Virus record (IMG/VR): IMGVR_UViG_3300009488_000048
Span: 1-31,956 of that record
Origin: a virus
Direction: 5' to 3' (one strand)
Length of the DNA: 31,956 nucleotides
The notes under the pieces were generated by a model. It had not been told where the DNA came from. It was given only the letters and a program-made list of their open reading frames with translations, and did no database searches. Below are positions 105 through 10,801 of the stretch, piece by piece. Position 1 is the stretch's first letter. The number at the start of each line of letters is the position of its first letter. Both the position numbers and the translations under genes were made by a program.

Positions 105-680
105 ATGGTGCTGGTCTCTAAGTCTGAATTCGCGCGTACTGTTGGCGTTGCGCCTTCATCAATAAATAAAGCAATTAAGAATGGGCGGCTACGAGTTGTT
201 GGCGAAGGACGAAAAGCAAAAATAAACCTTGAAGACGAACTGACCCGCGAATACCAAAAAGCAGACTCCGAACAACGGAGGACCTCGGGCACACAAAAAA
301 CTAAAAAAAAAACTATAAATACTAAAGCGCCACCGCCCCAGGAGAGAGAACGCCAGTATATAATCCCAGATTCGAACGTCAGTAAACACCAGGCAGATAC
401 GGACAGGATCAAAGCACAAACTGCGCTGACGCATATTAAGATCGCAGAGCAAATGAAAATTTTAATCCTGCGGGAAAAGGTAGATAAAAACTTTGGCAAC
501 ATGGCTTCGATTTTATTAAATCATTTCCACCCGCTCGGAACTCGACTGGCGCCAATACTGGCGGGGCTCTGCGGAGTGACGGATCAGGAAATAGTTTTAA
601 AAATTGAAAAGACAATTAATAAAGAAGTGTTCCGTGGCCTGGAAGAATTTAAACGGGTTACGCTGGAGGATATAAAATGA
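105..680 (+). CDS. Terminase small subunit-like DNA-binding protein
   Basis: A 191-residue protein whose first 45 residues look like a helix-turn-helix of the kind that starts phage small terminases (KSEFARTVGVAPSSINKAI, then a short basic wing). A charged, Lys/Arg/Gln-rich linker follows, then a helical C-terminal half. Small terminases bind the packaging site and recruit the large subunit. This gene lies first in the operon and only one gene separates it from the large terminase, which supports the call. It ends in an ATGA overlap with the methyltransferase gene. No Shine-Dalgarno sequence precedes the ATG, and the only upstream signal is a promoter-like pair at 70-98. The family assignment rests on the N-terminal domain and context; a transcriptional regulator is the alternative. 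Confidence 0.7.
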   Translation: MVLVSKSEFARTVGVAPSSINKAIKNGRLRVVGEGRKAKINLEDELTREYQKADSEQRRTSGTQKTKKKTINTKAPPPQERERQYIIPDSNVSKHQADTDRIKAQTALTHIKIAEQMKILILREKVDKNFGNMASILLNHFHPLGTRLAPILAGLCGVTDQEIVLKIEKTINKEVFRGLEEFKRVTLEDIK

Positions 681-1969
681 GCCTCGAAAATACAATTGAA
701 GAGTTAAAACTTAAACAATTAAAAATAATGTGCACCGGAGAAATTCTGGTCAATTGGAATAAACTCCAGGATCTCCAAATCACGGCGGATGGGAGATCGC
801 TTAAACGAACAGACGAAAATAAAATATTAATGCTTGCGGAATCCATGGCCAGATTTGGAATTGTTAATAATCTGCAGGTATGGGTTGACGATAAAGGGAT
901 CCCATACTGCTTTGACGCGCACCACCGGAAAAAGGCTTTCTCTGTTTTGAACGCACATGGAATAATAATCCCGGAATTGCCTGCGACACGATGCCTGGCG
1001 GAAAGCAAAGACGAAGCTAAAAAATTATTATTTATTAAGGAAAGCCGGAGCAGCTGGGTCGATATTGAGGTTGTGCCGGACTATATAAAGGAAATCGGGT
1101 TATCGGTTGAAATTGCATCAGCGACGGTAGATGTTCCGGAACTTATCTGGGACGATCTAAAAAAAGAAGAGGAACCGGAAACTAGTGGTGATGACGAATA
1201 CTCGAGTGCGACGCTCGAGAAACCAGTAACAAAACTTGGTGATCTGTGGGAACTTGGACCGCACCGGGTTTTATGTGGTGATAGTACAAAAGAAAAAGAT
1301 GTTGAAAAGTTAATGAATGGCGTCAAGGCCGACATGGTTTTTACAGATCCGCCGTATGGAGTGGATTATCAGAGTAATATGCGCACCAAATCGGAAAAGT
1401 TTGAAAAAATAAAAAACGATGATAAAAAGTTAGAATTTATGCCAATATTAGAAAAGTTTTCTGGTGGATGGGTTTTTATCTGGACAACATGGAAGGTGGT
1501 TAATCAATGGATTGAAAAAACAAAAATATTAGGTTTTCCGTCTAATATGATTATATGGTTTAAAGGTGGTAGAGGAATCGGAGATCTTAAAAAGACATTT
1601 TCTACAGATTATGAAATTGCGCTTGTTTTTAATAGAGGCGCAGAATTAAAAGGAAAAAGAATCGGAAGCGTATGGACAATCAGAAAAGATGGAGCGATTA
1701 ATTACGAACATCCCACACAAAAGCCTGTTTTTTTATCTGAAGAGGCAATTGACAAAACAACAGAAAGGCGATCTAAAATCCTTGATCTATTCCTCGGCTC
1801 CGGTGCAACACTAATAGCCTGCGAAAAAACAGACAGAATATGCTACGGAATGGAACTGGCTCCACAATACGTAGACGTAATCGTTAATAGATACGTTAAC
1901 TGGTGCCAGGAGAACGGACGACCATACGATGTCAAATTAAACGGCGAGCCACATGCCTGGAAAAATTAA
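677..1969 (+). CDS. ParB-domain/DNA methyltransferase fusion protein
   Basis: A 430-residue two-domain protein. Residues about 30-165 form a ParB/sulfiredoxin-like domain with the motif FDAHHRKKA, matching the ParB GxxRxxA region. Residues about 190-425 form an amino-methyltransferase: DPPY at 224-227 (motif IV, catalytic) comes before FLGSGAT at 372-378 (motif I, S-adenosylmethionine binding), the order of beta-class N6-adenine or N4-cytosine enzymes. No restriction enzyme is adjacent, so it is probably an orphan phage methylase that modifies phage DNA, perhaps against host restriction or to mark DNA for packaging. GGAGG seven bases before the ATG supports the start. It overlaps the upstream gene by 4 bases and the terminase gene by 17. 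Target base and site cannot be read from sequence. Confidence 0.9.
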   Translation: MSLENTIEELKLKQLKIMCTGEILVNWNKLQDLQITADGRSLKRTDENKILMLAESMARFGIVNNLQVWVDDKGIPYCFDAHHRKKAFSVLNAHGIIIPELPATRCLAESKDEAKKLLFIKESRSSWVDIEVVPDYIKEIGLSVEIASATVDVPELIWDDLKKEEEPETSGDDEYSSATLEKPVTKLGDLWELGPHRVLCGDSTKEKDVEKLMNGVKADMVFTDPPYGVDYQSNMRTKSEKFEKIKNDDKKLEFMPILEKFSGGWVFIWTTWKVVNQWIEKTKILGFPSNMIIWFKGGRGIGDLKKTFSTDYEIALVFNRGAELKGKRIGSVWTIRKDGAINYEHPTQKPVFLSEEAIDKTTERRSKILDLFLGSGATLIACEKTDRICYGMELAPQYVDVIVNRYVNWCQENGRPYDVKLNGEPHAWKN

Positions 1970-3929
1970 ACTAAATATCACAACGGAACAAATCGAGGAT
2001 ATGAATGAATATATCCGGGACAAAGCGAGATTTCTGCCGACAGTATTGCCGACGAAATCAATCGTTGAACACGCAGAATTTAAGAGAATCCTACCACCGG
2101 GAACACCAAGACCAGGACCACTGGATTTCTCATATACGCCATACCTAAATGAGCCACTTAACAACATGAGCCCAACGTCACCAATACAAAGAACGATTAT
2201 AATTAAAGGGGCGCAACTCGGATGGACGATGGCGGCGGAATGCATACTTTGCTACTATATGAGCTATTCACCCGCAGACCAGTTGTTTGTTTCGGCAACG
2301 GATGCGCTGCTTGAAAGGTGGGCAACTCGACGACTGGAACCAGCGATCGATTCATATGAGATCCGGAAATTTATTTATGCACAATATACGAATAAAGGCA
2401 GCCGGCGAACAGGCGACAAAATCTACTCAAAGGAATATTTTGGCTGCAGGCTGGATATGGCATCGGCACAATCCGCGGCGAGTCTAAGATCAACAGACAA
2501 ACGAATACTTATCCGGGACGAAATCGACGGTGCGCCGAAACTGCTTAAAACCGGCGAAGGATCCTGGCTGGACGTCTCATACGTAAGAACCAACGCTTGG
2601 GGAGACCGGAGGAAGGTTTTTGATTTTTCAACGCCTACGACATTTGACGAGAGTGTGGTTTTTCCGGCATATGAATTAGGCGACCAAAGAAAATTTTTTA
2701 TAAAATGCCCAATGTGTGGGAAATATCAATTTTTATTTTTTGAACGATTAAGACCAGAAAAAAAAGCCGGAATACTTATTGATGCCTATTATTTATGTGA
2801 TTTCTGTCACGATGCAATATTTAATCACCAAAAAACAGAATTGCTCAGATCAGGCGAATGGCGACCAACAGCAGAAATAAGAAACCCTCGAATCAGGTCT
2901 TATCATTCTCCATCGCTATTGTCACCGATAGGAATGTTGAGCTGGCGAGAATTCTGGGAAGCGTATGAAAAAGCCCAGGAAGAACCGGATGGAATGCGGT
3001 CGTTTACGAACTTATATAGAGGCTTGCCGTATAAGGAGACCGGTGCCAGGCCGGATCTTCAAAAAGTTATAGAATTACGCGGAGGGTACAAAATTAAAAC
3101 AGTGCCGGATGGAGTTTTATATTTGACGATGGGGGTCGATGTGCAGCAAGGATCCGAAAAAGACAAACAAAACCCTGCAAGAATCGAATTCGAAGTTATG
3201 GGAATGGGTGGAGGTTATCGGAGCTGGGGGATTACATATGAGCGGATTGAAGGGTCAATTGATAATGAATATTCCGGGGCTTGGGAAAAGCTATATGATT
3301 TTATCCACAAGACAAAGCTGAGATTTAAGCGGGCGGATGGTTACGAGTTTCCAGTTTCAATTGTTTTTATCGATTCTGGTGATGGAAACTTTACTGATAT
3401 TGTATATAGATTCTGCGCGCGTATCGGGGCGACATTTCCAAGTAAGGGTTTCGGGAATTTAAAAACCAGGAAAAAAGAAAAAGGCGATGAAGTGACAACG
3501 TCGAATTTCCGGCGGTACCGGTATGCGAAAGTTGGCGAAGATCAGATGATTTATGAAATAGCAACAAACTATTATAAAACCTTGATATATAATAATTTAA
3601 AAATTGCGCGCCAGCCGGTTGAGCCGCAAAAGCCGGGATTTTGTGATTTTCCGGTTGATTACGGCGAGAAATATTTCAAAATGCTTACTGCGGAAGAAAA
3701 ACACCGGGACGGATCATTCCATGATGGGGGGCGCCGAAATGAAGCGCTTGACTGTCGTGTATATTGTCAATGCGCGGCGGATGTTTGGATTGATAATCAG
3801 GTGATGATGGCTCGCGTCAAAGCCAAAAAGAATGGTGCACGGGATGACGATATTGCCAGGATTTCCAAAAGGACTATTATTCAGATATTGAAGGTAAAGA
3901 CTCAGCGTCGGGCGATAAAGGCTCCGTAG
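1953..3929 (+). CDS. terL: Terminase large subunit, lambda GpA family
   Basis: A 658-residue ATP-driven DNA packaging motor and nuclease that cuts concatemeric DNA and docks on the portal. The ATPase part carries the Walker A-like KGAQLGWT at residues 85-92 and a Walker B-like acidic pair DE at 189-190 after hydrophobic ILIR. Two CxxC pairs (Cys252/255 and Cys282/285) form a zinc-ribbon-like insertion seen in GpA-type proteins. The C-terminal nuclease part has Asp396 in GVDVQQ and Asp474 in FIDSGDG. Length is close to lambda gpA. It starts inside the methyltransferase gene (17-base overlap). Its last 53 bases overlap, antisense, the final codons of the leftward gene at 3877-4167, with no terminator between them. 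The portal lies about 7 kb away, behind the leftward block, instead of directly downstream. Confidence 0.95.
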   Translation: MPGKIKLNITTEQIEDMNEYIRDKARFLPTVLPTKSIVEHAEFKRILPPGTPRPGPLDFSYTPYLNEPLNNMSPTSPIQRTIIIKGAQLGWTMAAECILCYYMSYSPADQLFVSATDALLERWATRRLEPAIDSYEIRKFIYAQYTNKGSRRTGDKIYSKEYFGCRLDMASAQSAASLRSTDKRILIRDEIDGAPKLLKTGEGSWLDVSYVRTNAWGDRRKVFDFSTPTTFDESVVFPAYELGDQRKFFIKCPMCGKYQFLFFERLRPEKKAGILIDAYYLCDFCHDAIFNHQKTELLRSGEWRPTAEIRNPRIRSYHSPSLLSPIGMLSWREFWEAYEKAQEEPDGMRSFTNLYRGLPYKETGARPDLQKVIELRGGYKIKTVPDGVLYLTMGVDVQQGSEKDKQNPARIEFEVMGMGGGYRSWGITYERIEGSIDNEYSGAWEKLYDFIHKTKLRFKRADGYEFPVSIVFIDSGDGNFTDIVYRFCARIGATFPSKGFGNLKTRKKEKGDEVTTSNFRRYRYAKVGEDQMIYEIATNYYKTLIYNNLKIARQPVEPQKPGFCDFPVDYGEKYFKMLTAEEKHRDGSFHDGGRRNEALDCRVYCQCAADVWIDNQVMMARVKAKKNGARDDDIARISKRTIIQILKVKTQRRAIKAP

Positions 3930-4167
3930 GTCGTTCGTCAATAAATCCGTCTTCTATTTCTAACACTCCGAAACAAGTTTTTATGCCTGTGCCAATATCG
4001 TCATCCCCAACAGAAGAAACATATAATGGCTTTGGTTCTTCAAACAAAGGACAAAGATCTCCGCATAATGTTAATTTCGTATCTTGTTGTTTCACACAAA
4101 CCTGGGTTTTATAATCGGTTTTTCGGAAAACTTGTAATTTTCCATTAAAGCTTATTTTTACCTTCAA
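3877..4167 (-). CDS. Unknown protein, TTG start, tail-to-tail overlap with terL
   Basis: Ninety-six residues, not recognised. The N-terminal half looks beta-rich with four cysteines (VCVKQQ, LCGDLC, TCF), and the last 25 residues are acidic and Ser/Pro-rich. The start is TTG: GGAGG lies 5 bases before it, and TTGA overlaps the stop codon of the upstream gene, so translational coupling is likely. The 3' end runs 53 bases into the end of the terminase gene on the other strand. It is the last gene of the leftward operon. Confidence 0.7.
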   Translation of the reverse strand: MKVKISFNGKLQVFRKTDYKTQVCVKQQDTKLTLCGDLCPLFEEPKPLYVSSVGDDDIGTGIKTCFGVLEIEDGFIDERPTEPLSPDAESLPSISE

Positions 4168-4469
4168 AAAGCCTCCGTAACTGTATATTTTTTTAAAACA
4201 TGAAAAATAGATTTTTTTACTTCATCTTTGATGAAGACTTGACCTAATCCAAGATTTTCTGTAATTTCATCCGCGAGTTCATGGTTTAATTTTATTTTGC
4301 ATGTTCCGGTGATGGTCTCGACCACCGGTTGCGGCAAAGCTATATTTATTAACTTATCCGCCAATTCTGATGCGAAATTTACTATATCTAAGTTCTCGCA
4401 AACTTTTAATTTCATTTCGGTTAAGGCAATTACTGTATCAAAAACTTTGTCTATTAAATATTCATTCAT
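4164..4469 (-). CDS. Unknown small helical protein
   Basis: A 101-residue protein of unknown function, predicted largely helical with regular hydrophobic spacing and no membrane segment. AAGGAG about 10 bases before the ATG supports the start. It is followed by a 4-base TTGA overlap with the next leftward gene. The reading frame and ribosome site support a real gene; no domain is recognised. Confidence 0.7.
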   Translation of the reverse strand: MNEYLIDKVFDTVIALTEMKLKVCENLDIVNFASELADKLINIALPQPVVETITGTCKIKLNHELADEITENLGLGQVFIKDEVKKSIFHVLKKYTVTEAF

Positions 4470-4483
4470 TTTGTGGGATCTCC

Positions 4484-4873
4484 TTAAGTTTTAAATTTAC
4501 AATATTTTTTTTTCATGCAATATCTATTAGAATGGCCTGTTTGCTTGTTACAAATTAAAGGGTAACCTCCGCAAACAGGCGGCCTTGTACCTGGCTGAAA
4601 GATTTTTCCAGTTCCGTAATCTGTTCTGAGAGTTGGCCCCATTGTTTTTGATTTATAAATGTTTGTTTTAGTTCTTTTTTGTGCTAATGAAATCAATTCG
4701 TCTTGAGGCATTTCATCATTATACATTTTAAATACATGTTTTTTAGAGCGCAATTTATTTGGGTCTAATCTCTTCCATTTGCCGTTTATTTTTATACAAA
4801 AGTCATCCCCATACAATAACTTATCAAGCTGCATTTTCTTTATTTCAGATTCTGATATGTTAGTATTTTTCAT
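4484..4873 (-). CDS. Unknown basic protein with Cys-rich C-terminus
   Basis: A 129-residue lysine-rich protein. The C-terminal 30 residues hold four cysteines spaced C-x6-C-x10-C-x5-C, with a histidine between the second and third, and Lys runs around the last two. This could be a small zinc-binding module for nucleic acid, but the spacing is not a named finger class. The ATG overlaps the end of the upstream gene by 14 bases and lacks a strong ribosome site, so coupled translation is likely. Function unknown. Confidence 0.65.
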   Translation of the reverse strand: MKNTNISESEIKKMQLDKLLYGDDFCIKINGKWKRLDPNKLRSKKHVFKMYNDEMPQDELISLAQKRTKTNIYKSKTMGPTLRTDYGTGKIFQPGTRPPVCGGYPLICNKQTGHSNRYCMKKKYCKFKT

Positions 4874-5168
4874 CCGGTATATATGCTTCTTTCATGTTTT
4901 TATATTCAATCAATTTTACCATTTCATCATTTCCTGATTCACAGTTTATTGGATCCATCACAACATATAAGTTAACCTTTACACTGACTGGTATGTTGTG
5001 CCGGATCCACTCTTTTAATTGTTTTTCGTTTCGTCGAAATACATACAAATCTATAGTATTATATTCTGATGAAATAGGATTATTTTTATTTTTTTCTTGA
5101 TTGATAGCATCAAAAACCAGAGGAATGTTGTTACTATTAGCATTTTTTTCTAAATCTTTTAAAGTCAT
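4860..5168 (-). CDS. Unknown small protein
   Basis: A 102-residue protein with a central alternating hydrophobic stretch (VKVNLYVVMD) and charged flanks, suggesting a small mixed alpha/beta cytoplasmic protein. No family recognised. It begins 6 bases after the upstream stop and overlaps the next gene by 14 bases, as expected in a compact early operon. No clear Shine-Dalgarno sequence is present. Confidence 0.6.
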   Translation of the reverse strand: MTLKDLEKNANSNNIPLVFDAINQEKNKNNPISSEYNTIDLYVFRRNEKQLKEWIRHNIPVSVKVNLYVVMDPINCESGNDEMVKLIEYKNMKEAYIPDEKY

Positions 5169-5174
5169 ATGGTT

Positions 5175-5498
5175 TTATTTATATTCCCCCGCATCAAAAC
5201 TCACCATATAACAACTAACGCCTTCTTTTTTCCCAATTAAAAGAGTCTTCCGGTCATAATTTTCAAGTTCTTCATCCGCCCAATCAGCCCAATCAAAAAG
5301 CATATAGCCTCGTTTATGGAAGTCTCTGAATTGCTTCCAGTTTGCTAAAGTGTGAACTTGCATAATTCCAGATAAATTATTCATTATTTCCAGCAATGGA
5401 TTCATTTCTCTTTTAAAATTTAATTTTTCCGATGGGATCATCTCTTTGTAAGCCTTGGGTTTTGTAACAATTTGATTACCTTGTTTTGATTGATTCAT
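5175..5498 (-). CDS. Unknown small protein
   Basis: A 107-residue protein with a basic N-terminus and an aromatic/acidic central segment (LFDWADWADEELENYD). The residues around it, from HTLANWKQF to DWADEE, suggest an interaction surface, but no family is recognised. GGAGG six bases before the ATG firmly supports the start. It overlaps the end of the upstream coiled-coil gene by 23 bases. Confidence 0.7.
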   Translation of the reverse strand: MNQSKQGNQIVTKPKAYKEMIPSEKLNFKREMNPLLEIMNNLSGIMQVHTLANWKQFRDFHKRGYMLFDWADWADEELENYDRKTLLIGKKEGVSCYMVSFDAGEYK

Positions 5499-5808
5499 AC
5501 TTTGCCTCCAATAATTTAATTTTCAGCTCTCCGGCCCTTATGGCCGTCTCGAAGCCGAGAAGTTTTTTTTTTAGGTGTAAAATTTCCGGGAGTCCTTTTA
5601 TTTGGTCAATGGATTTTTCATAAGAAATATCAATCTGTTTTGCGAGTTCTTTCTGATAGGCGATCAAAGTGTCGGCGTAATGGTATCGATTTTGTACCAC
5701 TAATTCGAGGCTTAATTCCCATTTTTGAAGGAGATAGGCTGGATCTGTGATTTTAGATATTTTGGTTGATTCGCCGGTGTCATCGTTTTTTTGCAGGCTT
5801 TCTTGCAT
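5476..5808 (-). CDS. Unknown coiled-coil protein
   Basis: A 110-residue, highly helical protein with long runs of charged and Leu/Ile residues (from about residue 25 to the end), typical of a coiled coil. No catalytic motif. The frame stays open upstream to 5913, but the ATG at 5808 has a perfect-looking GGAGG 6-7 bases upstream, and the longer version would lie almost wholly inside the neighbouring gene, so 5808 is preferred. It overlaps that gene by 29 bases and the next one by 23. Function unknown. Confidence 0.7.
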   Translation of the reverse strand: MQESLQKNDDTGESTKISKITDPAYLLQKWELSLELVVQNRYHYADTLIAYQKELAKQIDISYEKSIDQIKGLPEILHLKKKLLGFETAIRAGELKIKLLEAKYESIKTR

Positions 5809-6028
5809 TTGAATCCTCCGCCATAAATTTTTCCGGCTTATTTTTTTGCCAAATTTTTTGAAGAGCATATTTCGATAGTTTGTCGAGTTCACAGGCCCGA
5901 GGTACAGATCCATTGTTATTTAAGAAAAATTTCTTTATTAAATAAATTAAATCGTTTTTGTTCTGCACGGATCGTCCCACAACATCGTCTGCGGTTATTT
6001 TTTCGCCAAAATTTTTAATTGTTTTCAT
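5780..6028 (-). CDS. Unknown small basic protein
   Basis: An 82-residue protein with a Lys/Arg-rich C-terminus (ARKPAKKR) and a helical middle that could hold a short DNA-binding helix pair (VPRACELDKLSKYALQKI). No family is certain. The start is an ATG 14 bases inside the preceding gene, with AAAGGA about 14 bases upstream, so coupling to the ribbon-helix-helix gene is likely. It overlaps the coiled-coil gene by 29 bases. Confidence 0.6.
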   Translation of the reverse strand: MKTIKNFGEKITADDVVGRSVQNKNDLIYLIKKFFLNNNGSVPRACELDKLSKYALQKIWQKNKPEKFMAEDSNARKPAKKR

Positions 6029-6164
6029 TATTTTGTTTTTCGTCCTTTATTAAAAAAGTTCTAATTAACGCCTCGGTCTCGCCGTGAATATTTTTTTTGT
6101 TAATCTGGCACCATTGGCGCCAATCTAACCATAATTTTTCATCAATATTTAATGTTGCTCGCAT
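6015..6164 (-). CDS. Ribbon-helix-helix (CopG/Arc-like) small regulator
   Basis: A 49-residue protein with the shape of a ribbon-helix-helix DNA-binding domain: beta strand RATLNID, helix A (EKLWLDWRQWCQINKK), turn, helix B (HGETEALIRTFL). Such proteins bind operators as dimers. The frame is open further upstream to 6227, but AAGGAGAG just before the ATG at 6164 fixes this start, and the longer form would translate through a GC-rich hairpin. The leader carries a strong hairpin and a long inverted repeat (6184-6261), possible operator or RNA control elements. Autoregulation is inference. Confidence 0.65.
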   Translation of the reverse strand: MRATLNIDEKLWLDWRQWCQINKKNIHGETEALIRTFLIKDEKQNNENN

Positions 6165-6183
6165 AAACTCTCCTTTTTTAATT

Positions 6184-6205
6184 GCCCCCGGGTTTCCCCG
6201 GGGGC
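6184..6205 (-). promoter_or_regulatory. 9-bp GC hairpin with GAAA tetraloop in leader of the RHH gene
   Basis: Arms at 6184-6192 and 6197-6205 pair perfectly over 9 bases, all G:C. Read on the - strand, the loop is GAAA, a stable GNRA tetraloop. The hairpin ends about 8 bases before the AAGGAGAG ribosome site of the 6015-6164 gene. No U-tract follows in either direction, so it does not look like an intrinsic terminator. RNA stability or translation control is inferred. Confidence 0.7.
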
Positions 6206-6217
6206 GCCTCACCACAA

Positions 6218-6261
6218 GGCAACTCATATTGTGGATATATAATATGAGTCCGTGAGTTGCC
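6218..6261. repeat. Inverted repeat with two alternative pairings
   Basis: GGCAACTCATATT at 6218-6230 faces AATATGAG at 6241-6248 and TGAGTTGCC at 6253-6261. The left arm can pair either as CTCATATT with AATATGAG (8 bp, 10-base loop, extendable by GGCAA/TTGCC over a bulge) or as GGCAACTCA with TGAGTTGCC (9 bp). It lies between two leftward genes, before the ribbon-helix-helix gene, so an operator or RNA switch is possible. Confidence 0.6.
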
Positions 6262-6275
6262 CTGTTATTTTGTCA

Positions 6276-6533
6276 TTATATATTTAAAATATGTTCGTCG
6301 TATTCTCCCATATCTAAATCCAGAGAATTGCTTCTGCCGTAAGGATGGAATTTTCCTTCGATCAATTCACAATATCCCGCACTGGTAGGTTTTCGCTTTC
6401 CAGCTTTAATTTGATCGTGTTCCATTCCCATTCCAAAAACAACAGGGACAATGTTATCAAAAATAATGTACTTTCTTGTTGATTTTTTCTTTGTTGATTT
6501 TACTGATTTTTTCTTTGTCTTTTTTTTAGCCAT
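6276..6533 (-). CDS. Unknown small protein with Lys-rich N-terminal tail
   Basis: An 85-residue protein. The first 22 residues are almost all Lys, Ser and Thr, a disordered nucleic-acid-binding type of tail. The remainder (IVPVVFGMGMEHDQI, SAGYCEL, YGRSNSLDL) resembles a small protein type common in phages with no known role; that resemblance is from memory of the motif pattern. AAGGAGAG seven bases before the ATG supports the start. The same 15-base leader (CACAAGGAGAGCAAA) precedes the gene at 8662-8913. Confidence 0.7.
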   Translation of the reverse strand: MAKKKTKKKSVKSTKKKSTRKYIIFDNIVPVVFGMGMEHDQIKAGKRKPTSAGYCELIEGKFHPYGRSNSLDLDMGEYDEHILNI

Positions 6534-6595
6534 TTTGCTCTCCTTGTGTTTTATATTAGTCTATCTCATCAGTGCCGGGCGACAAATCCTGACAG

Positions 6596-6611
6596 ACCGG
6601 GAAGACCCGGT
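6596..6611. repeat. Small GC hairpin in a leftward intergenic gap
   Basis: ACCGGG (6596-6601) and CCCGGT (6606-6611) form a 6-bp stem with a 4-base loop, 12 bases downstream of the stop codon of the ParB-like gene on the - strand. The short stem without a good U-tract makes it a weak terminator at most; it may act as a 3' end stabiliser or nothing. Confidence 0.35.
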
Positions 6612-6622
6612 TTCGAAATTAT

Positions 6623-7126
6623 TTATTCCCAAGCCTCCGAAAATTCTTCATTCTTAAATAATTCCGCTAAACCCGTAATTTGTTTAAGCCTCAAAACTTC
6701 GTCTTGATCCATGCCAAGTTCTTTCGCTATTTTTTTGTCATTCCAATTTTTTTTTGATAACTCAACAACTATATCAGACATGGCAGATATTTGATGTTTT
6801 CCTCTCGCACGATTATGCCTAATTGTGGAGGCAATACGATCATTTCTTTCTGTTGATTCTTTGTTAACAACTACTACAGGCAAATGTGACAGATTCATTT
6901 TTTTTCCAACGATATGCCTATGAAAACCATCTATTACTTCATAACCATATTCAACTTTCCAAACAACTATAGGCTGTGTGAATCCATCGGCTTCTATTGA
7001 TCTTTCAAGTAGTTTCATTTCAGGAGGAGCCACTTTATTAGGATTATAATCATTAGCAAAAATTAAATTTGAATCAATCCATATGACATTTGATACCGGA
7101 TGTTTTTTCGTCCATTCTAAAACCAT
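6623..7126 (-). CDS. ibrB: ParB-like protein, IbrB-type partner
   Basis: A 167-residue protein with a ParB/sulfiredoxin-like domain in its first 90 residues: NDYNPNK, a helix ending in FTQPIVVW, and VIDGFHRHIVG, equivalent to the ParB GxxRxxA box. A helical C-terminal part follows (KKIAKELGMDQDEVLRLKQ), like the ParB helix-turn-helix. It directly follows the PAPS-reductase-like gene and overlaps it by 10 bases, the layout of E. coli ibrA-ibrB, whose products together activate eib genes. The ATG at 7138 is also open, but GGGGAG five bases before the ATG at 7126 favours the latter. The family pair is well supported; the biochemical role is unknown even in known pairs. Confidence 0.8.
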   Translation of the reverse strand: MVLEWTKKHPVSNVIWIDSNLIFANDYNPNKVAPPEMKLLERSIEADGFTQPIVVWKVEYGYEVIDGFHRHIVGKKMNLSHLPVVVVNKESTERNDRIASTIRHNRARGKHQISAMSDIVVELSKKNWNDKKIAKELGMDQDEVLRLKQITGLAELFKNEEFSEAWE

Positions 7127-8352
7127 TTTTCTCCCCATATTTTTTTATTAGAAATCGTTTTTTGTTTTTCTATTTTTTTTCTCTCCATATATTTCTGATA
7201 AAAATAACCAGTTTTAGTTTGTGAAAAAGATAATGTTTTTCCCCAGTAATCATTACGCAACAACATTTTACAAATTCTTTTCCACGAAGGACTTTTTTTA
7301 TCTTCTATTCCTGTTTTATTTTCGTCTGGTATATCCCCAGGAAAACCTCTCTGGTCATACCATTTAAGAAAAGTGAAAATTTTATTTTCATAATGTTCTT
7401 TTGATTTTTTAGGCATACTTGATAATAATATATTTGCAAAATCTTTCCATTTTTTATCATCAGGTTTTGTTATTTTTATTTGTCCGCTAACTGACCCATT
7501 TATTTTTACAAATTCTTTTCCGCTATTAGCCCCCGAAACTCTAGCCACAACCTTGCACCATGTATCAGGTTCTATTATTTGAAACAACCATAGGCCTTTT
7601 CTTTGATCATCGCCGTAAGGTTGGCAAATTCTCTGTTGATGAATGCTAAGACCTGCCTGCTGCATTAAATCATATAATTTATTATATGATTTTTTAAATT
7701 TACCATTATATATCCAAATATCTTTTGTTCTCCAATCGTATATAGGATAAATATTATATACGAAACTATTTTTTATACGTGTTGTATATTTTTTTTGTTT
7801 ATACATTTCTTTTTTATCATTTTTGATTGCTCTATATCGATTTAAACTTTCATCCGATCTAATTCCTACAAAACATGCAGTTTTTTTTTCATTAGAAATC
7901 CATTTAGCATATTCAATTACAAATTCTTCAAACTCCATCCCTTGATTAAAAAAGCCAAAATATTTACAATCATTAATTGATTCCACAGGTAAATCTCTAA
8001 CCCATGCTGATCGTTTTTTTTTATCCCAACAAATCCACCGTGGATTATAAACAGAAACAGCATTACGTAATATTATTGGTAAACATATATGATGAAATTC
8101 GCAAATATCTGAATAGTGTTTTGTCATTTCAATAATGTGCTGAATTGTTAGTTTATATTGCGCTTCCATATCAATAAACAGAATCGTTATTTTTTTTCTT
8201 CTTTCTCGTGCTATTTCGCAAACAAGATGCATCATGACAGACGAATCTTTACCTCCGGAAAAAGATAAATAAATCTTCTCAAATTCATCAAAAACGAAAT
8301 TAATTCGTTCTATAGATGCATCATAAACATTTTTATTTATTTTAATTTTCAT
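7117..8352 (-). CDS. ibrA: PAPS-reductase-like PP-loop protein (DUF3440), IbrA-type
   Basis: A 411-residue protein with the PP-loop SGGKDSS at residues 32-38, which binds and activates ATP in the adenine nucleotide alpha-hydrolase fold. FIDMEAQY follows, where PAPS reductases read their substrate, and YPIYDWRTKDIW matches the conserved region late in the fold. The long C-terminal part (about residues 235-411) with QQRICQPYGDDQRKGLW is typical of the IbrA/DUF3440 subgroup rather than of cysteine biosynthesis enzymes. In E. coli IbrA acts with IbrB in gene regulation by an unknown mechanism. The gene is extremely AT-rich, rich in Lys/Ile codons, and overlaps both neighbours (11 and 10 bases). 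Phosphorothioation enzymes (DndC) share the loop, but no other dnd gene is present. Confidence 0.88.
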   Translation of the reverse strand: MKIKINKNVYDASIERINFVFDEFEKIYLSFSGGKDSSVMMHLVCEIARERRKKITILFIDMEAQYKLTIQHIIEMTKHYSDICEFHHICLPIILRNAVSVYNPRWICWDKKKRSAWVRDLPVESINDCKYFGFFNQGMEFEEFVIEYAKWISNEKKTACFVGIRSDESLNRYRAIKNDKKEMYKQKKYTTRIKNSFVYNIYPIYDWRTKDIWIYNGKFKKSYNKLYDLMQQAGLSIHQQRICQPYGDDQRKGLWLFQIIEPDTWCKVVARVSGANSGKEFVKINGSVSGQIKITKPDDKKWKDFANILLSSMPKKSKEHYENKIFTFLKWYDQRGFPGDIPDENKTGIEDKKSPSWKRICKMLLRNDYWGKTLSFSQTKTGYFYQKYMERKKIEKQKTISNKKIWGEKWF

Positions 8353-8659
8353 ATTTAAACCGGATATTTTTTATAGCATCTTCAAAAACATAACTTTGAG
8401 AGCCATTAAATTTATGATAAAATTTATCCTCTTTCGCATCATAATAAAAATCTTCTATAGAGCCTGCACAATTATTTTTCGCTTTTTTATTTGATATTTT
8501 TTCACCTTTATATTTCGCTTGAGAGATATTTCCTGAATTATAAGTTTCAATCTCATATCCTGCCATCATATTTATAAAACTATGGGGAAGATAAATTCTT
8601 TTATGGTTATATTTTTCCCATAATCTGCCATTTTTTAACAAAAAATCAAATAATATCAT
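8342..8659 (-). CDS. Unknown protein upstream of ibrA-like gene
   Basis: A 105-residue, Lys/Asn/Tyr-rich protein of unknown family. Its C-terminal half (EDFYYDAKEDKFYHKFNG) looks like a small beta sheet. It starts 2 bases after the preceding stop and overlaps the IbrA-like gene by 11 bases, so it is probably co-translated with that pair and may be a third component. The ribosome site is weak. No enzyme motif seen. Confidence 0.6.
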   Translation of the reverse strand: MILFDFLLKNGRLWEKYNHKRIYLPHSFINMMAGYEIETYNSGNISQAKYKGEKISNKKAKNNCAGSIEDFYYDAKEDKFYHKFNGSQSYVFEDAIKNIRFKYEN

Positions 8660-8661
8660 AT

Positions 8662-8913
8662 TTATAATCCTAATTGATATATCACTTCTATTGTTTTTTT
8701 AGAAATTTTACCCATATTTCCTAATGTTTCAGGAATTGTCATTTCTATATTTAAAATTTTTTCAATTTTATTAATATTTTTCTTTCCTACATGTTTTATT
8801 AAATATGATTTTCCAGTAAGTCCTGACAGCCAATTTTCAGCAAAAAACTTAACTTGTTCTTTTGTTAATTTGTAATTGTTTTTTTTAATTTCGTTAATTT
8901 TTAAATTTTCCAT
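8662..8913 (-). CDS. Unknown small Lys/Ile-rich protein, first gene of the leftward cargo operon
   Basis: An 83-residue protein, predicted mainly helical, with no recognised family. The segment ENWLSGLTGKSYLIKHVGKKNINKIEKIL could hold a short DNA-binding helix pair, but this is weak. AAGGAGAG eight bases before the ATG supports the start. It lies about 42 bases below a good promoter (8955-8983), so it is the first gene of the operon running to 3877. Confidence 0.65.
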   Translation of the reverse strand: MENLKINEIKKNNYKLTKEQVKFFAENWLSGLTGKSYLIKHVGKKNINKIEKILNIEMTIPETLGNMGKISKKTIEVIYQLGL

Positions 8914-8954
8914 TTTTGCTCTCCTTGTGGTGATTTAATTTGTCTTATAATGTA

Positions 8955-8983
8955 TATATACTCCATTTACAAACTTTTGTCAA
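8955..8983 (-). promoter_or_regulatory. Sigma70-type promoter of the leftward cargo operon
   Basis: On the - strand TTGACA (8983-8978) is a perfect -35 box, followed after exactly 17 bases by TATATA (8960-8955). The expected start is near 8948, leaving a short leader with AAGGAGAG before the ATG at 8913. The gap 8914-9066 holds this promoter and long A/T runs; no GC-rich terminator for the upstream lysis genes was seen, so readthrough from them is also possible. Confidence 0.8.
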
Positions 8984-9066
8984 GCTTTTTACAAAAAAAA
9001 AGCAAAAAAAATGCAATTTTTTTACAAAAATCTTGCAAAAACGCAGAAAAAGCACTATACAAATGT

Positions 9067-9453
9067 TTAAAATCGACAGGAGAGAGGCAAAATCATCGCA
9101 CGATGATTAATTGCCCAGTCTAATACTATATATATAGCAGCGCCGAGAACGATGGCGCCGGACACGCAGGACGTAATAAACCAGAAATCTGACCAAAATC
9201 GGGTTTGATTTAGCTGTTTTTGCAATTTGTTGATATGATTATCGAGAGTCATATCAATAAAATTTGCGGGCAATCTGGTGATAATGGACATATACTGGAG
9301 CGGGATAAAAAAACCCTTCTCGGGCACTAAAAAATTAAAACCTTTGTCCAAAAAAACAGTTAAATTTTCATCGTTTAGATTTTTTTCGTCGGCAAAAGCC
9401 GATACCGAAATAAAAACAAAAAATAATGCTATTATAAAAAATAATTTTTTCAT
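9067..9453 (-). CDS. Exported membrane protein of the lysis block (possible outer spanin analogue)
   Basis: A 128-residue protein with a classic signal peptide: MKK, a hydrophobic core and a cleavage motif SAFA-DE at about residue 21. A second hydrophobic segment lies near the C-terminus (about 93-115, ITSCVSGAIVLGAAIYIVLDW), with a predicted coil before it. It follows the single-membrane-span gene by an ATGA overlap, where Gram-negative phages often have spanins. There is no lipobox cysteine, so it is not a normal outer spanin; a unimolecular-spanin-like topology without lipid anchor is a possibility. CAGGAG before the ATG at 9453 supports this start over the open frame to 9492. Function inferred from context. 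Confidence 0.55.
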   Translation of the reverse strand: MKKLFFIIALFFVFISVSAFADEKNLNDENLTVFLDKGFNFLVPEKGFFIPLQYMSIITRLPANFIDMTLDNHINKLQKQLNQTRFWSDFWFITSCVSGAIVLGAAIYIVLDWAINHRAMILPLSCRF

Positions 9454-9695
9454 CGATTTCTCCTGATCGTGTCGTTTAAGTATTTTTGCCACTGTTTGGG
9501 CGTCATTTTATCCAGTTCTTTGCGTTTTTCCGAAAATTCTTTGAGTATTTCGGCTTTGGTCTGTCCAGTTTCGGTTTTTTGTCGAAAATTTAAATATTTC
9601 TTGCCGGTGCTATAAACTTTGAACAACAGTACCAATACCGCAATGGCAATCCCATATTTTATTATTTTTTCAATTATTTCAGGAATCTTTGTCAT
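9450..9695 (-). CDS. Single-span membrane protein, inner-spanin-like
   Basis: An 81-residue protein with one membrane segment at about residues 12-30 (YGIAIAVLVLLFKVY), followed by a charged helical tail ending TIRRNR. N-terminal anchor plus periplasmic helix is the layout of an Rz-type inner spanin, which links the inner membrane to an outer-membrane partner during lysis. ATGA overlaps on both sides show tight coupling to the holin-like gene before it and the exported protein after it. No sequence signature is unique to spanins, so this is a context-based call. Confidence 0.55.
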   Translation of the reverse strand: MTKIPEIIEKIIKYGIAIAVLVLLFKVYSTGKKYLNFRQKTETGQTKAEILKEFSEKRKELDKMTPKQWQKYLNDTIRRNR

Positions 9696-9922
9696 TTTTT
9701 TTTACCATTGAAAAATCCAAAAATTTTTGATGCGATAACAACGCCTGCTTTGCCACATACGGACATTGCAATAATACCAAGAACCAAATTTATAAATTTC
9801 GGCCTGTTGAGAAAAATAATAGCGCCTCCGAGTATGATTCCGTCGATAGCGAGCAGAAACGATATTAATCGGCCCATGGACCGGCCATTTTTGTCCTCAA
9901 AAAAGCCTTTTTTATTATCCAT
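9692..9922 (-). CDS. Holin-like membrane protein
   Basis: A 76-residue protein with two hydrophobic segments (about residues 17-33, SFLLAIDGIILGGAIIF, and 42-64, LVLGIIAMSVCGKAGVVIASKIF) and a basic C-terminus (NGKKK), the size and shape of a class II-type holin that times lysis by making membrane holes. It directly follows the amidase gene, overlapping its stop by 8 bases. The frame extends to a TTG at 9958, but the ATG at 9922 is preferred. No strong ribosome site is seen, suggesting coupling to amidase translation. Confidence 0.65.
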   Translation of the reverse strand: MDNKKGFFEDKNGRSMGRLISFLLAIDGIILGGAIIFLNRPKFINLVLGIIAMSVCGKAGVVIASKIFGFFNGKKK

Positions 9923-10520
9923 TATAATATTTTTTGTAAATCTCCAAGATTGCTTCAACGTGCAATTGCGCTATATTGTCGCGACCATCTTCTGATGTTA
10001 TATAATCAAAATCTTTTTTTGTATCCATAAAGAAACTTTCGGTCAAAACGGAAGGGCAAGTTGTATGTTTTAACATAAAAAAACCAGCTTCTTTGTCTTT
10101 ATCGCCGTCGGTTATATCTTTTCGAATGGGCCACCCCTCGAAGGATTTTTCCGCATTATTGTAGAAAATTTCGCAATACTTATCAGAACGTGTTTGACCG
10201 CGTGAAGTCCATCCCTCCCATCCTGTGCCCCCTCCAGCGTTTGCATGGATGGAAAGCACCCACGAATCTTTATTTTTTCGACAAAATTGGTTGGCGCGCC
10301 TTATGCGATCTTTCCAGTAGATATCTTTTATTTCTGGGACTAAAAGATGATAATCAATACCTGATGATGGGCACCCCATATTAAAGAAATCGATGAAATT
10401 GGTTATTCTTCGAACAATATCTCGATTAAATTCATACTCGAACAATTGCTCGCCATCAAAAACGGGCGAGCGCTTGCCGGCAGTGTCTTCGCCGTGACCA
10501 TTATCTAAGATTACTATCAT
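9915..10520 (-). CDS. N-acetylmuramoyl-L-alanine amidase (Amidase_3), endolysin
   Basis: A 201-residue zinc amidase that cuts the bond between muramic acid and L-alanine in peptidoglycan. DNGHGED at residues 6-12 gives the first zinc histidine (His9), Glu28 or Glu30 is the second ligand, SIHANAG gives His92, and LTESFF gives catalytic Glu161. It has no signal peptide and no binding domain, so it needs a holin or similar exit route; the holin-like gene follows. The start at 10520 is chosen because AGGAG lies about 10 bases upstream and TAATG joins it to the previous stop; a longer ATG at 10541 is possible. Cell-wall lysis at the end of infection is the expected role. Confidence 0.9.
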   Translation of the reverse strand: MIVILDNGHGEDTAGKRSPVFDGEQLFEYEFNRDIVRRITNFIDFFNMGCPSSGIDYHLLVPEIKDIYWKDRIRRANQFCRKNKDSWVLSIHANAGGGTGWEGWTSRGQTRSDKYCEIFYNNAEKSFEGWPIRKDITDGDKDKEAGFFMLKHTTCPSVLTESFFMDTKKDFDYITSEDGRDNIAQLHVEAILEIYKKYYNG

Positions 10521-10801
10521 TATATTTTTTCTCCTATCCATTTAATGAGTTCAAAAATATAGTTTTTAAAAAAACTCAAAATTACAGTAATTATTAAAAT
10601 ATACCATTTTATATCTTTTCGTCTTCGCTCCGGTTTTTTTTCCAGATCGTCAATCCGGGATACGTTATCGTTAACGGTACCAACCAATCCGCTTTTCTTT
10701 GGATCGTCAAGGGGACCCTTTAGGAGGGTTAATATTTCATTAAGTGTTGTTTTCATATCGGTTACAGTCTGAGTAGTTAATTCATTGTTTTTTTCCGGCA
10801 T
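10520..10801 (-). CDS. Tail-anchored membrane protein of the lysis block
   Basis: A 93-residue protein: a polar helical region of about 65 residues (with ETL-type heptads and RIDDLEKKPERRRK), then one membrane segment at about 68-85 (WYILIITVILSFF) and a short basic end. It is the first gene of the lysis block, and the layout is like the hemolysin XhlA-type holin accessory proteins, though no sequence identity is claimed. AAGGAAAA before the ATG supports the start. Its stop shares a base with the amidase ATG. Expression is probably from the leftward half of the overlapping promoters at 10818-10860. Confidence 0.6.
   Translation of the reverse strand: MPEKNNELTTQTVTDMKTTLNEILTLLKGPLDDPKKSGLVGTVNDNVSRIDDLEKKPERRRKDIKWYILIITVILSFFKNYIFELIKWIGEKI

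Follow-up and report, generated by a model that had tools for sequence, protein, structure and literature searches.

The window analysed here is the whole stretch of 31,956 nucleotides (the 32 kb virus record IMGVR_UViG_3300009488_000048). Its lambda gpA-type terminase, Baseplate_J and tail sheath genes mark its source as a contractile-tailed phage. The original prediction placed an IbrA/IbrB-like pair, a PP-loop protein followed by a ParB-like protein, at 6623-8352 without naming a strand. Both open reading frames were found there on the minus strand, the IbrA-like gene running from 8352 to 7117 and the IbrB-like gene from 7138 to 6623, and the predicted 411-residue PP-loop protein indeed carried the SGGKDSS sequence. 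The following features are referred to below.

677-1969, plus strand: N6/N4 DNA methyltransferase (PF01555, 4.9e-20); its N-terminal part is ParB-like according to PHROG, and it has a DAHHR motif
6623-7138, minus strand: IbrB-type ParB-like protein, 171 aa, with a ParB/Srx NTP-binding domain and an HTH
6671-6832, minus strand: HTH region, IbrB residues 103-156, as a predicted model on the KorB operator-binding domain 1r71
6917-6931, minus strand: DGFHR motif, IbrB residues 70-74, at the place of the ParB 'GERR'
7117-8352, minus strand: IbrA-type PP-loop protein, 411 aa, with PF01507 and PF11922
8239-8259, minus strand: PP-loop SGGKDSS, IbrA residues 32-38, read in the translation
8342-8659, minus strand: 105-aa ORF directly upstream of IbrA, overlapping the IbrA start by 11 bp
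8662-8913, minus strand: 83-aa ORF that opens the presumed operon
8955-8983, minus strand: putative promoter-like site TTGACA-17-TATATA, read from the sequence, preceding the 83-aa ORF

The IbrA and IbrB genes overlap by 22 bp. They belong to a minus-strand block (3877-10801), which also contains an endolysin gene and separates the gpA-type terminase gene from the portal genes, both on the opposite strand. GC content was 32.6% in the block and 28% in the IbrA gene versus 40% in the rest of the window, and because of this difference the block with IbrA/IbrB was likely acquired as cargo. The proposed setting of the pair, a cargo operon with small unknown neighbours, is thus supported. No relatives were detectable for the 83-aa ORF, nor for the 105-aa ORF with Pfam, PHROGs or the third-gene family profiles described below. 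A site of the TTGACA-17-TATATA type arose in 0.29% of shuffles of the intergenic stretch before the 83-aa ORF; a general scan for promoters and terminators gave counts no higher than in shuffles.

The methyltransferase gene at 677-1969 sits between the small and large terminase genes of the window, and Pfam ParB_N had no match in it. This ParB-like methyltransferase beside the terminase was absent from the original prediction, as were the close K-12 copy of the pair and the usual third gene in its relatives.

Assignment to the IbrA/IbrB family

The window IbrA matched DUF3440 (PF11922, 6.1e-27, 95 bits versus a gathering score of 25) and PAPS_reduct (PF01507, 2.5e-19, 70 bits versus 22.5), contained the SGGKDS PP-loop and matched phrog_2302 (4.5e-80) in PHROGs. 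The window IbrB, beside it, matched ParB_N (PF02195, 9.4e-9) above the gathering score and phrog_2159 (3.7e-65), and contained the NPN, DG[FY]HR and TIRHNRARGxH motifs. IbrA was 43% identical to E. coli K-12 YbdN over 399 aa and IbrB was 59% identical to YbdM over 167 aa; the annotated IbrA and IbrB of Escherichia phage PhiR5_2 were 44% and 55.5% identical to the window pair. The likeness to E. coli IbrA/IbrB rests on these annotated copies (PhiR5_2) and on K-12 YbdN/YbdM rather than on the ECOR-9 sequences. These results bear out the predicted assignment, and the window pair is a further member of the known, widely annotated IbrA/IbrB pair.

The PhiR5_2 and K-12 pairs share domains, size, gene order and overlap with the window pair, and their identity to it is near full-length. 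The window pair differs from them in lying in a phage late-region cargo block with an unrelated ORF upstream, in having Gly instead of Cys at IbrA residue 371 and in having an IbrB of 171 rather than ~210 aa. Pairs from Streptococcus, Flavobacterium, Mycobacterium, Fusobacterium and other phages are likewise adjacent and have the same conserved motifs. They often come with a second ParB, a methyltransferase, a helicase, a GNAT or one of the proteins called IbrC and Y below, none of which is adjacent to the window pair.

Membership of the DndC or cysteine-biosynthesis groups, which would have spoken against the original prediction, was tested with NCBIfam models. The window IbrA scored far under the cut-offs for DndC (TIGR03183, 33.1 bits versus 290.4), for CysH/PAPS reductase (TIGR00434, 27.7 versus 165.1; TIGR02057, 31.5 versus 254.2) and for CysD/ATP sulfurylase (TIGR02039, 31.5 versus 396.6). 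The window IbrB was rejected as a partition ParB (TIGR00180, parB_part, 34.8 bits versus 58.45), and no DndB or DGQHR model was among the NCBIfam matches at E<=0.1, although the DGxHR motif is shared. DndC/DndB and DpdA/DpdB each combine an enzyme with a ParB/Srx-fold protein, as IbrA/IbrB does, and DndB has a DGxHR-type motif, but by profile these systems belong to different families.

Pairing, distribution and neighbouring genes

The co-conservation on which the original prediction depended was nearly complete. Among loci with enough flanking sequence, IbrB was present within 2.5 kb on the same strand in 75/75 viral and 73/75 bacterial loci found via IbrA, and IbrA was present in 66/67 viral loci found via IbrB. 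When 99 genomes of one bacterial order were examined, the same two, one of which was the chosen centre of that genome set, carried IbrA and IbrB, adjacent to each other, and the other 97 carried neither. The two genes are closely linked, and the pair occurs rarely and sporadically. Distances between IbrA proteins were correlated with those between IbrB proteins (r = 0.82), which shows only that the two are inherited as a unit. Among 50,697 phage records, relatives of IbrA occurred in 215 and relatives of IbrB in 222. Many phages are annotated with IbrA/IbrB, and Heimdallarchaeal viruses also have the pair (PMC8813620). Viral contigs gave no match when the window IbrA served as a single query; an alignment-based scan did find loci.

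Analysis of the neighbours in 213 non-redundant loci revealed a gene that recurs close to the pair and in many cases lies at the start of IbrA or overlaps it. A recognised third gene of one of four kinds was found in about four fifths of these loci. IbrC, a label coined here, is a protein of ~130 aa present in 105/213 loci and sometimes fused to the IbrB C-terminus; it had no Pfam or PHROG match. Family Y (~130 aa, 25/213 loci) is related to the uncharacterised family phrog_26647. The remaining kinds are a GNAT acetyltransferase (PF00583, 42/213 loci) and an SNF2 helicase (PF00176, 18/213 loci). The distance to IbrA was 60 bp or less for 83/105 IbrC, 16/25 family Y, 30/42 GNAT and 11/18 SNF2 genes, and some loci had two partner genes. 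None of the four partners was recognised in 42/213 loci or in the window, and the same was true for 28/75 bacterial loci, indicating that the pair can stand alone. On the IbrA tree, the third gene would have changed between IbrC, GNAT and Y five or more times, a rough figure given the long branches of the tree. No description of these partners was found in the literature searched, which left out J Bacteriol 2002 and NAR 2013. Near-absolute pairing and partner genes are traits of the IbrA/IbrB family rather than of the window.

Examples of IbrC are found at L003:4567-4992, L004:4622-5020 and L057:171-1298 (locus number and positions) and in about 100 more loci. Family Y has the motif 'WVAEI...KDYSxANSKGSRGI' and overlaps the IbrA start (L106:3741-4145, L099:4410-4838, L168:5618-6001 and others). 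A deltaproteobacterial genome bin contains the run SNF2 helicase, IbrA, GNAT and IbrB (L200:4565-8171). A relationship of the GNAT partner to phage Mu Mom was rejected, since Mom gave 1.5 bits against the GNAT profile. In the window, the 105-aa ORF occupies the position held by the third gene in other loci; it was rejected as a divergent member of a third-gene family, the profiles giving at most 1.2 bits compared with 8-12 bits for the best of 2000 shuffles.

Other genes were also seen around the pair. In several phages, as in the window, it is near terminase and DNA methyltransferase genes. In phages of Mycobacterium, Bacillus, Rhizobium, Arthrobacter and Faecalibacterium (L012 to L016), IbrA is shorter and has an additional, different ParB-like gene on its upstream side, directly adjacent to it in 3/5; methyltransferase or terminase genes come next in some of these phages. 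In Fusobacterium phage phiFN37, a second ParB-like gene lies ~3 kb from the pair and beside a queuine tRNA-ribosyltransferase-like gene (L007:9745-11030), an arrangement that recalls DpdB/DpdA. Phages of Pseudoalteromonas and Mycobacterium have an ectoine-synthase/cupin domain that adjoins IbrB or is fused with it (L009:6305-6697, L010:6299-7198), and small proteins resembling the C-terminal part of IbrA were seen downstream of the pair (L010:7847-8137, L009:7520-7828, L233:8478-8792).

Active sites and predicted folds

Residues S32, G34, K35, D36 and S37 of IbrA were invariant in 92 aligned proteins. Conservation across 200 non-redundant loci was at least 98% for the IbrA PP-loop, D61, E63, GIRxxESxxR box and PxxDWxxxD, and likewise for NxYNPN, DGxHR and TxRHNRARGxH of IbrB. 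The loci had been collected by motif patterns, and conservation was rechecked in whichever gene was not the bait. The PP-loop was present in 43/43 IbrA proteins from loci found via IbrB, so its conservation is not an effect of the search pattern, and DG[FY]HR was present in 142/143 IbrB proteins from loci found via IbrA.

The predicted IbrA model (pLDDT 92) was about equally close to the FAD synthase PAPS domain, CysD, FMN adenylyltransferase and PAPS reductases (Z 13-15), and its fold also resembles the thiolases TtuA/NcsA. The model suggests that IbrA is an active-looking PP-loop enzyme, equally near to PAPS reductase and to adenylyltransferases such as FAD synthase and CysD. It shares the PAPS-reductase-like PP-loop fold with the FAD synthase PAPS domain, CysD and CysH, and differs from them in its additional DUF3440 C-terminal region.

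This class membership and the fit to TtuA/NcsA are compatible with a sulfur-based modification like that of DndC/SspD or of the tRNA thiolases, in which IbrA would transfer sulfur via cysteines or an Fe-S cluster and IbrB would do the targeting. Cysteines C243, C361 and C371 of IbrA are frequent, and all three were present in 125/200 loci. However, none is invariant: all were missing in 4/200 loci, and residue 371 (around 7240), a Cys in 176/200 relatives, is Gly in the window IbrA, which keeps C243 and C361. A sulfur mechanism is possible for many IbrA relatives, but judging from the aligned sequences it is not favoured as the general chemistry because no cysteine is invariant. The low DndC score also argues against it, and neither a cysteine desulfurase nor another Dnd/Ssp gene was recognised among the scanned window genes, nor DndD/E/A or DpdA in the window. 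We consider the sulfur-type modification that the original prediction had suggested very unlikely.

The AlphaFold2 model of IbrB (pLDDT 83) shows a ParB/Srx NTP-binding fold followed by an HTH, as in ParB, KorB and Noc. Its best matches were KorB (Z 15.4, 137 residues), Noc and ParB with bound CTP/CDP, and its predicted HTH region superposed on 1r71 with 1.2 A over 54 residues. Weaker matches were sulfiredoxin, SerK and SbnI, the last two at Z about 8. In contrast to KorB/Noc/ParB, IbrB has DGFHR rather than GERR and a fixed PP-loop partner rather than ParA, and no C-terminal dimerisation domain was visible in the window protein. A 2025 survey of the ParB fold, whose main text mentions neither IbrB nor PAPS, notes that sequence does not reveal nucleotide specificity (PMC12704722). 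No palindrome that could serve as an IbrB site recurred in the window.

The main rival of a DNA-modification function is a transcription switch, in which IbrB would be a VirB/KorB/Noc-like clamp that, once loaded on DNA, relieves silencing or activates promoters, and IbrA would make, consume or sense an adenylated small molecule that gates IbrB, leaving the DNA unmarked. IbrA/IbrB reportedly activate transcription of prophage eib genes in E. coli (a J Bacteriol 2002 study), and such a transcriptional effect fits a switch, as does the nearness of the HTH-bearing IbrB model to KorB, Noc and ParB. With an IbrB model that resembles KorB and Noc, the regulatory role in the original prediction is possible. 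There is also a precedent in the ParB-like VirB, which activates transcription via a CTP-dependent switch (PMC10770331), and K-12 ybdNM is itself under the LysR-type repressor CitR/YbdO (PMC9068703). A pure switch, however, leaves the near-invariable PP-loop enzyme beside IbrB unexplained, and likewise the GNAT, SNF2 and other partners; the DGFHR in place of the GERR of CTP-binding ParBs and the lack of a recurrent palindromic site in the window also weigh against it. On balance, we regard this explanation as rather unlikely.

The match of the IbrB model to the free serine kinases SerK and SbnI, together with the similarity of DGFHR to the DGxHR of that fold, brings up an auxiliary metabolic role, the supply of sulfur or cysteine, in which IbrA would act on sulfate or PAPS and IbrB would act like these kinases. 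The PAPS_reduct domain of IbrA fits this, and a citR mutant in which ybdN is over-expressed also shows raised expression of cys genes (PMC9068703). Nevertheless, KorB and Noc are far better matches than SerK, IbrB has an HTH, IbrA fails the CysH and CysD cut-offs by a wide margin and no further sulfur-assimilation gene was recognised among the scanned window genes. This is the most improbable of the explanations considered.

The target of the pair could instead be tRNA or some different RNA, or else a protein of the host, rather than DNA; such an enzyme might, for instance, serve anti-defence or host takeover. The PP-loop relatives TilS and TtuA/NcsA act on RNA, proteins or small molecules are frequent acylation targets of GNAT partners, and the spread of the pair in mobile elements is sporadic. 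The HTH in the IbrB model is of DNA type, however, and no RNA-binding domain was recognised, making a non-DNA target unlikely.

A possible DNA-modification system

The explanation that we prefer, at somewhat less than an even chance, is that IbrA, loaded onto DNA by IbrB, carries out a modification there that depends on ATP. The two proteins would act on DNA as one unit, in a physical complex. IbrB would be a small ParB/KorB-like switch whose ParB/sulfiredoxin-fold domain binds a nucleotide and whose HTH binds DNA; it would load on DNA in a nucleotide-dependent manner and bring IbrA there. As a PP-loop enzyme, IbrA would split ATP into AMP and pyrophosphate and thereby activate its substrate, adenylating or otherwise activating a group on the DNA so that this group can be modified. 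In many phages, the third gene (IbrC, family Y, GNAT or SNF2 helicase) may complete the chemistry or aid access to the DNA. The resulting mark would protect phage DNA or alter transcription, and the latter would also cover eib activation.

Several observations from sequences and models are consistent with this explanation: the near-absolute pairing, the conserved active-site residues, the KorB/Noc-like fold of IbrB and the adenylyltransferase-like fold of IbrA, the third gene in most relatives, and the closeness to terminase and DNA methyltransferase genes in several phages and in the window. The ParB-fold proteins DndB and DpdB, which are partners of DNA-modifying enzymes, provide precedents (PMC12839542; PMC12704722). 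On the other side, no modified nucleoside for any carrier was found in the literature, and IbrB is most like KorB and Noc, which are DNA-binding switches and not modification partners. The window has no recognisable third gene, and more than a third of the bacterial loci (the 28/75 above) have none of the four partners. Small phage ParB-like proteins are, moreover, frequent in many contexts, and to our knowledge the sole phenotype of the pair is transcriptional, namely eib activation.

A stronger proposal is that IbrA/IbrB lies at the heart of a phage DNA-modification system which is as yet undescribed, makes a new DNA mark and consists of a nucleotide-gated ParB-like loader, a PP-loop adenylating enzyme and an exchangeable third subunit (IbrC, Y, GNAT or SNF2 helicase). 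We put this forward as a tentative possibility.

The phage-wide annotation of IbrA/IbrB as a 'co-activator of prophage gene expression' stems from one E. coli study. The close K-12 copy (ybdNM), the named residues and the recurrent third genes make the function of the pair testable, and the third genes indicate where further components may be sought. Were the pair to modify DNA, this would be a new and widespread phage modification system, and the effect of the pair on transcription would be explained.
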